Positions 52,940 to 53,994 of a stretch of 64,000 bases of DNA are shown here, one piece after another. The position numbers and the translations under genes are program-made. The notes below the pieces were generated by a model. It saw only the letters and a list, made by a program, of their open reading frames with translations. It did no database searches and was not told the origin of the DNA. The stretch spans positions 369,008-433,007 of the forward strand of contig CAJJCJ010000006.1 in assembly GCA_905182645.1 (NCBI GenBank). The letters are read 5' to 3'. How positions within the stretch are numbered: the first letter of the stretch is position 1; each line of letters starts with the position of its first letter. This stretch comes from an uncultured Sulfitobacter sp. GTDB lineage: Bacteria; Pseudomonadota; Alphaproteobacteria; Rhodobacterales; Rhodobacteraceae.

Positions 52940-53025
52940 GGCACAGCACCAACACAGTGGCTGCCAACTATGGCTCAGGGTATGCTCTGGAGGTCATGCG
53001 GGAGCATATGGAGCGGGTGTGGTGA
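52940..53025 (+). pseudogene. Integrase C-terminal remnant (direct repeat copy 2)
   Basis: Reads ...HSTNTVAANYGSGYALEVMREHMERVW*; near-identical DNA to 39746-39829. Confidence 0.85.
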
Positions 53026-53050
53026 TGAATTTTGTTTGGATAAAATATCA

Positions 53051-53947
53051 ATGAACAAAGCCCGCGCATTTAACCCGTTCTTGTGTGCAAAGACTGATAA
53101 GTTGATGGCGCTCATCGCAGAAGTACAAACACAAATCGAGGGGTATGAGTCCTTTCATCAGACCCGCAAGAGAGCTCGCAGACCCGCTGACCAGGCAACC
53201 TATGACCGTACAGTTGAGGCCATCCTGTGTGACCTGTGTGCTGTAGAGCTTGGGCCTGACAACGACAGCATCCACCTCCCCCTCAGCAATAAAGTCCTCA
53301 GAGCAAAATCACGCTACAAAGGGACCGCCTTGGGGAAGACCCTTCCAGCCATCTTGGACGTGATGTCAGCACCTGAGATGGACTTTGTGGTTCTCGAGAA
53401 AGGCCACAGCACCTTCAAGATTGTTGATGATGACCTGAACGTAGCCTTTGCAGGGGGACAGCAGACCATACTGAAGGCAGGCCCAAAGCTGCTGTCACGT
53501 ATAGAACGCTTTGGCATCACCAGAGATGACATGGGCCATGCCCTGAGGAGGAAGTGTTGATCCTGCGTGCTCCCAAGCGTCATTCCAACAGCATCGCAGA
53601 ATATCAAGAGTATGAGGATGATGAGGCAACACTCGCCCTGCGTCAGCAGATGACCGACATCAATGCCTGGCTCTCAGGCTGCTGATATCACCTGCAGCCT
53701 CCCCCAAGTGGACCCAGCCCAACGTCGCCTACGCCGCATCTTCAACAACTCAGACTTTGCACAGGGCGGCAGGCTCTACGGTGGGTTCTGGCAGGCCATG
53801 TCCTCGGATGAGCGCCAGGAGCATATCCTCATCGAGGATGATTGGTGTGTCGAGCTAGACTACGGACAGATGAGCCTTGCCATCCTGTATGGACTGACAG
53901 GTACCAAACTGTCTGACGTCAGCACCCGCTGGACAGATTTGAGTATT
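53051..53947 (+). pseudogene. Copy A of the wHTH + family-A-polymerase-like palm protein; two frameshifts, truncated by the IS3-family element
   Basis: ORFs 53051-53560, TTG 53557-53685 and 53663-53950 together align by eye along ORF 57146-58534: NPRYRDPL.../KSRYKGTA..., TIILRDKV...LQEYDDTPA / LILRAPKR...QEYEDDEA, QRTLVRIFSNGSFKQGGRFYRGWWQ / QRRLRRIFNNSDFAQGGRLYGGFWQ. Confidence 0.7.
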
Positions 53948-53994
53948 TGAATAACGGAGGATTTCTGGTTCATCTTATCGATTAGGAGATCGAG

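Follow-up and report, generated by a model that had tools for sequence, protein, structure and literature searches.

The tRNA-Leu(CAG) island

The window, the whole 64,000-nucleotide stretch of DNA that was analyzed, carries the following features (L and G numbers are our handles for the loci, contigs and genomes compared with it).

38275..38360, + strand: tRNA-Leu(CAG), the insertion site (ARAGORN, congener flank search and locus comparison)
38497..39975, + strand: intA, a near-complete tyrosine integrase gene (PF00589, E 4e-14; weak DUF6538 match)
39746..39827, + strand: copy 1 of an 83-bp direct repeat, the 3' end of intA (78/83 identical to copy 2)
39996..52674, - strand: block of hydantoinase, dipeptidase, oligopeptide-type ABC transporter and XRE-cupin regulator genes (ORFs; functions assigned by eye from sequence)
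52940..53025, + strand: integrase C-terminal remnant (repeat copy 2, 52940-53022)
53051..53909, + strand: polymerase copy A, a pseudogene interrupted by an insertion sequence and frameshifted near 53558 and 53660-53683
53910..55400 (outer ends approximate), + strand: IS3-family insertion sequence (OrfA 53995-54369, OrfB 54366-55346; rve and HTH_Tnp_1 by NCBIfam/Pfam)
55354..55868, - strand: polymerase copy C, a pseudogene fragment of a third lineage (phrog_4756, E 8e-8; matches the second L078 polymerase at the DNA level)
57146..58534, + strand: polymerase copy B (POL), intact, 462 aa (phrog_4756, E 1e-38)
58592..59326, - strand: small serine recombinase of the resolvase/invertase type (PF00239, E 2e-25)
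59600..59719, + strand: 39-aa cysteine-rich protein (MAECGCGRSPTGKCVGWH...; same product in L079, a similar one in L080)
63464..63889, - strand: 140-aa protein (phmmer E 1e-16 and 2e-13 to ORFs inside the att-delimited elements L080 and L128)

The intA gene, which was absent from the initial annotation, begins directly 3' of tRNA-Leu(CAG). Its product is 50% identical across 429 aa to the L075 integrase, and a 1-bp gap near the 3' end of the gene results in a frameshifted C-terminus. The second integrase survives at 52.9 kb as about 27 residues. This tail is 94% identical to the 3' end of intA over 83 bp, and its alignment to the L075 integrase scores 81, the best of 200 shuffles scoring 43; by these comparisons it is a genuine integrase C-terminus. 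The two 83-bp repeats from the integrase 3' end bracket approximately 13 kb of DNA (39746-52940) that encodes hydantoinase, dipeptidase and ABC-transporter proteins. At the tRNA-Leu of congeners, matches to this block were limited to weak, generic ABC-ATPase ones, and the block could be either element cargo, displaced DNA or the product of a deletion between tandem elements.

It had been proposed that the integrase at 52.9 kb and the polymerase-like gene behind it form one operon of a mobile module. Translation confirmed the junction: the tail ends in ...AANYGSGYALEVMREHMERVW with its stop at 53025, and the ATG of copy A (MNKARAFNPFLC...) follows at 53051 on the + strand after a gap of 25 bp. 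As a pair of working genes the proposal fails, both being decayed, with a C-terminus left of one and two frameshifts and the IS cut in the other. The copy A protein is 77% identical to the product of an intact gene in L061 (86% at the DNA level against L061 6685-7660), its 3' part matches phrog_4756 (E 6e-10), and it is related to copy B. The IS3-family element interrupts copy A at about 53910, with the copy C fragment on its far side. No integrase lies directly upstream of copy B.

Relatives of the serine recombinase adjoin POL in 11 of 44 POL loci, and such recombinases are possibly multimer resolvases of the elements. A 39-aa cysteine-rich ORF is also present downstream of copy-B-type POL in L079 (near 6717) and L080 (near 9504, with a stop inside). 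The Pfam scan assigned no family to the 140-aa protein, and a long protein is encoded at window positions 61288-62943, with degenerate repeats in tandem (61850-62680 at the DNA level). A direct repeat of the tRNA 3' end belonging to the window's own island was not found, and the right end may fall beyond the end of the contig. The two integrase tails, the decayed pair and the three POL lineages indicate that the island received several related elements. The window contains a small mobile element, now in pieces, that was centered on an integrase and a stripped-down polymerase.

The tRNA-Leu(CAG) flank was recovered in 40 of 41 congeners, its position is conserved across the genus, and an integrase is present there in at least seven other genomes. 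One of these, G342, encodes at tRNA-Leu a full integrase ending in ...LGHSTNTVAANYGSGYALEVMREHMNRVW and its stop codon, followed after 28 nt by the ATG of the copy A orthologue on the same strand, the contig stopping within POL. G320 has the same gene order at tRNA-Leu with a broken integrase frame, the junction is seen in L061 too, and at the homologous site of IMCC1909 an integrase and POL follow tRNA-Leu(CAG) in that order, this POL being 86% identical to copy B. Approximately ten congeners have tRNA-Leu without an adjacent integrase and POL was found in 9 of the 41, a pattern expected of a mobile element. When the joined flanks of L142 were used as an empty-site query, the tRNA and the flanks matched separately in many genomes and no contiguous empty site was recovered. 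Judged by these shared gene orders, the integrase-POL pair is ancestral and not a product of chance.

Integrase and POL across genomes

Of 298 Rhodobacteraceae genomes, 42 match the phrog_4756 profile; among 398 Pseudomonadota genomes there are 27 with a match, of which 26 belong to the Alphaproteobacteria. A pattern scan of GTDB species, for which a closer subset was used, the alignment of 34 divergent POL members being too variable, returned 398 POL relatives; SAR116 and roseobacters predominate among the 80 that were kept. An integrase is encoded within 6 kb of POL in 26 of 40 Rhodobacteraceae loci, where the frequency of integrases in the genomes (3.3 per Mb) predicts 4% (binomial P ~3e-26). 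A second sample, mostly of Alphaproteobacteria outside the Rhodobacteraceae, gave an integrase near POL in 15 of 20 loci and tRNA-end repeats in seven. The prediction of the initial annotation that the pair would recur at tRNA genes was therefore correct. About one third of the Rhodobacteraceae POL loci have no integrase in the available sequence, and many of these are short contigs.

The close spacing seen in the window, with the integrase first, on the same strand and at most about 100 bp from POL, is found in eight genomes overall (G342, where it is intact, L034, L063, L078, L080, L135, L329 and L334); the integrase was identified by PF00589 in L135, and by DUF6538 and an integrase profile in L080. 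It is one layout among several. At other loci the two genes are split by cargo or are convergent, and these layouts leave an obligate operon unsupported.

A repeat of the tRNA 3' end was detected downstream in 23 of the 42 tRNA-bearing loci tested, as had been anticipated in the form of flanking att repeats. Direct repeats of the tRNA 3' end delimit 22 elements, whose length is 6.2-14.6 kb with a median of 9.3 kb. Among them is the Nereida ignava element (L080 6113-16244), which has a 46-nt att repeat at tRNA-Arg. All 22 have POL between the repeats and 21 have the integrase there too; in L141, the exception, an integrase ORF overlaps the boundary. The terminal 14 nt of the tRNA were found again in the element's own locus in 21 of 22 cases, against 0 of 448 comparisons with other loci (shuffled-locus control); since the elements were picked for having repeats, the control is the informative figure and the 21/22 is not. 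Insertion by the tyrosine integrase takes place at the tRNA gene's 3' end, and a direct repeat of that end is left on either side of the element.

The cargo of the elements consists mainly of resolvases, transposases and restriction-system DNA methyltransferases. Neither phage structural families nor a conventional primase-replicase or AlpA were among the matches listed for 115 cargo ORFs (Pfam/PHROG, best 25 families per search), and for the cellular tRNA elements the expected absence of capsid genes was upheld to that extent. The leanest elements are composed of integrase, POL and cargo: L156 encodes an integrase, a type III restriction-modification pair, one further ORF and POL, and L154, among the smallest, is 6.2 kb long. 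A terminal-overlap test for circles was positive for 0 of 58 bacterial POL contigs and for two contigs from IMG/VR. Intact versions occupy tRNA genes in many marine and soil Alphaproteobacteria, and they seem to constitute an undescribed, widely distributed family of mobile elements that bring their own replication enzyme.

Fold and probable role of POL

POL belongs to the phrog_4756 family by profile and matches no Pfam family at E values up to 1, DNA_pol_A included. Its AlphaFold model has a mean pLDDT of 91, and the top Foldseek matches in the PDB are all family A DNA polymerases of the Pol I type (probability 1.00, E 5e-4), followed by POLRMT. The model is laid out as an N-terminal winged-helix-like domain joined to a reduced family-A palm and fingers; the N-terminal part gives weak Foldseek matches to winged-helix regulators, none with an E value below 0.07, and is an apparent winged helix. 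The order of the motifs (GR...QN.P, D-Y/F-S, R-x3-K, HD) is that of family A. Residues D263, D381, H380, R235, R249, E261 and K299 are invariant in 66 of 66 sequences and R295 is kept in 65, and these include the catalytic aspartates (D263, D381) and the fingers Arg/Lys (R295, K299) of family A. An hhalign comparison of the POL profile with PolA aligned the expected motifs at a probability of 12%, a sequence search of solved structures gave no credible match to POL, and a viral scan with the single window protein recovered no relatives. Structure prediction and conservation together show POL as a putative reduced polymerase of the family-A/T7 RNA polymerase type (the single-subunit RNA polymerase type) with an apparent winged helix at the N-terminus.

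Glu710 of the Klenow fragment is the steric-gate residue. The position in POL that aligns with it (N268) is H, N or Q in 66 of 66 sequences and Glu in none, and the Tyr766-aligned position (307) is N, Q or T among the 66, both equivalents having been placed by motif and a remote hhalign alignment. POL could be a single-subunit RNA polymerase, or an enzyme confined to priming, that transcribes or primes the element and is not a DNA polymerase. The loss of the Glu710 equivalent, the HDS form of motif C, as in T7 RNA polymerase, and the POLRMT structures among the Foldseek matches all point in this direction; however, DNA Pol I outranks the RNA polymerases in Foldseek, and sugar selectivity is not safely readable from a remote alignment. 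We regard the RNA polymerase or primase reading as possible but doubtful, and it modifies the explanation favored below more than it competes with it.

POL is also encoded outside cellular genomes. The circular IMG/VR contig L167 (9932 bp including a 127-nt terminal repeat, hence ~9.8 kb) encodes an HK97 capsid, protease, portal, head closure protein, HNH protein, large terminase, a repressor-like protein and POL, which is its sole recognized replication candidate; no tail gene was seen in it and no integrase was detected. The same head genes are combined with POL in L166, L168, L169, L170 and L159. Contigs of the L166-L170 type are ~9-10 kb, and L159 is longer and bears an integrase. In the lytic phages ICP1 and KASIA, POL is encoded beside the phage's own DNA polymerase and primase/helicase. 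Relatives in lytic phages lie at L037 7011-8678 (ICP1 gp100) and L038 7479-8828, and some Vibrio phages have two POL copies. The claim that these systems lack capsid genes consequently does not extend to a separate minority of relatives, in which an HK97 head module is present in satellite-like contigs.

The main alternative to a role in replication is that POL serves as an anti-phage or counter-defense polymerase and that integrative elements, like the lytic phages competing with them, carry it as cargo. The restriction-modification genes of the elements would fit such a role, as would the duplicate copies just mentioned and the presence of POL as an additional enzyme in phages equipped with DNA Pol I and primase/helicase. 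POL is nevertheless found in every att-delimited element while the defense genes vary, an argument tempered by the loci having been found via POL, and circular L167 has no replication candidate other than POL. We consider this explanation rather unlikely. The minimal gene sets and circular L167 suggest a replication role, and element replication or priming is, with some confidence, the most likely function of POL; its presence in addition to the polymerase and primase of ICP1 and KASIA indicates that replication initiation may not be its sole role.

Less probable still is that the POL loci are ordinary prophage remnants and POL a phage replication gene. Relatives do occur in phages and IMG/VR contigs, and terminase, portal and capsid genes accompany some of them. 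Against this stand the size of the att-delimited elements (6-15 kb) and their listed cargo matches, free of structural families, the failure of head-module queries to match any of the cellular tRNA POL loci, and the 9-10 kb size of head-module contigs such as L167, with no tail gene seen in the latter. A minority of relatives are an extra gene in large lytic phages. Chance adjacency of the integrase tail and copy A, through a deletion beside an unrelated integrase, would suit a window rearranged by an IS and holding three polymerase copies or fragments and two integrase tails, but is rejected as very improbable: G342 has this junction intact, G320 and L061 have it as well, and the integrase-POL association in 26/40 and 15/20 loci is far above chance.

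We therefore favor, as the probable explanation, that small integrative elements targeting tRNA genes form a family in Alphaproteobacteria, that POL primes or carries out their replication, and that the pair in the window is the core of such an element after decay. In this model the tyrosine integrase would place the element in the 3' end of a tRNA gene, from which it would excise in circular form. POL would recognize the element's origin through its winged helix, and the polymerase domain would lay down a primer or first strand and so start autonomous copying, to be completed by host or helper-phage enzymes. The serine resolvase present in many members would resolve multimers. Elements without a capsid would travel in helper-phage particles, and a related lineage carries its own HK97 head genes together with POL. 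Repeated insertion at tRNA-Leu(CAG), followed by decay, would have left the window with two integrases and three POL lineages, one of them intact. We tentatively extend this model, at a clearly lower level of confidence, to propose that POL represents a new class of self-sufficient replication initiators, a minimal family-A polymerase guided by a winged helix and capable of priming with ribonucleotides. It would then define an unrecognized family of phage satellites that includes tRNA islands lacking a capsid as well as circles that form one, and lytic phages such as ICP1 would have acquired homologues.

How genomic islands move or are copied is in most cases not known. Here, one uncharacterized polymerase marks hundreds of islands in ecologically dominant marine Alphaproteobacteria (roseobacters and SAR116), many with restriction systems. 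If POL starts element replication, it would replace the usual satellite primase, provide a simple marker for finding such elements and, as a family-A polymerase of very small size whose active site is unusual, be an enzyme worth studying. A gene of no assigned function in ICP1 and other Vibrio phages would also gain a role open to testing.

Comparison with known systems

The VEIMEs and tycheposons of Eppley 2022 and Hackl 2023 are reportedly tRNA-targeting elements of marine bacteria. They are described as small, with a tyrosine recombinase, a tRNA target, cargo genes and marine hosts (PMC10803314, PMC11389934, PMC10187409). The POL elements share the tyrosine recombinase, the tRNA gene target, the small size, the cargo and the marine hosts, and differ in the recurrent POL partner, which goes unmentioned in the texts consulted, a comparison made by description only. 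Some POL elements may already be present in the VEIME and tycheposon catalogues with the gene unrecognized. Our literature search, outside which the VEIME and tycheposon source papers lay, found none naming the POL family, DUF6538 integrases or their pair. The suggestion of an undescribed system accordingly survives in part: the element type, a satellite-sized element with an integrase at a tRNA, is known, and it is the recurrent POL partner, placed in both capsid-less islands and capsid-forming satellites, that is undescribed as far as searched.

POL shares the palm and fingers fold and the motif order of Pol I and T7 RNA polymerase/POLRMT. It differs from them in its length of 462 aa, in having no exonuclease domain and no match to Pfam DNA_pol_A, in the replacement of the Glu710 and Tyr766 equivalents (H/N and N/Q) and in the additional, apparent winged helix at the N-terminus. 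The phrog_4756 proteins of Vibrio, Shewanella and Aeromonas phages, such as ICP1 gp100, are by profile POL's own family, one without an assigned function, and in those phages the gene is an extra one in lytic genomes of 90-150 kb.

The cfPICIs resemble L167, L166, L168 and L169, contigs of ~9-10 kb with no tail identified in which POL is combined with HK97 terminase, portal and capsid genes, and some of which also have HNH and head-closure genes. In contrast, the cellular tRNA elements, including the window, are without head genes, and L167 is without a detected integrase. The wider likeness is to phage satellites such as P4, PICI, PLE and PICMI, which share with the POL elements a size of 6-15 kb, insertion at a specific tRNA or gene, and a gene set of an integrase, one replication-type gene and defense cargo. 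The 6.2-14.6 kb range of the POL elements falls within satellite dimensions, again with no structural family among the matches listed. Known satellites typically encode a primase, and PICMI encodes DUF3987/DUF5906 domains and AlpA (PMC10803314). In the POL elements, it is POL that would stand in the primase's place.
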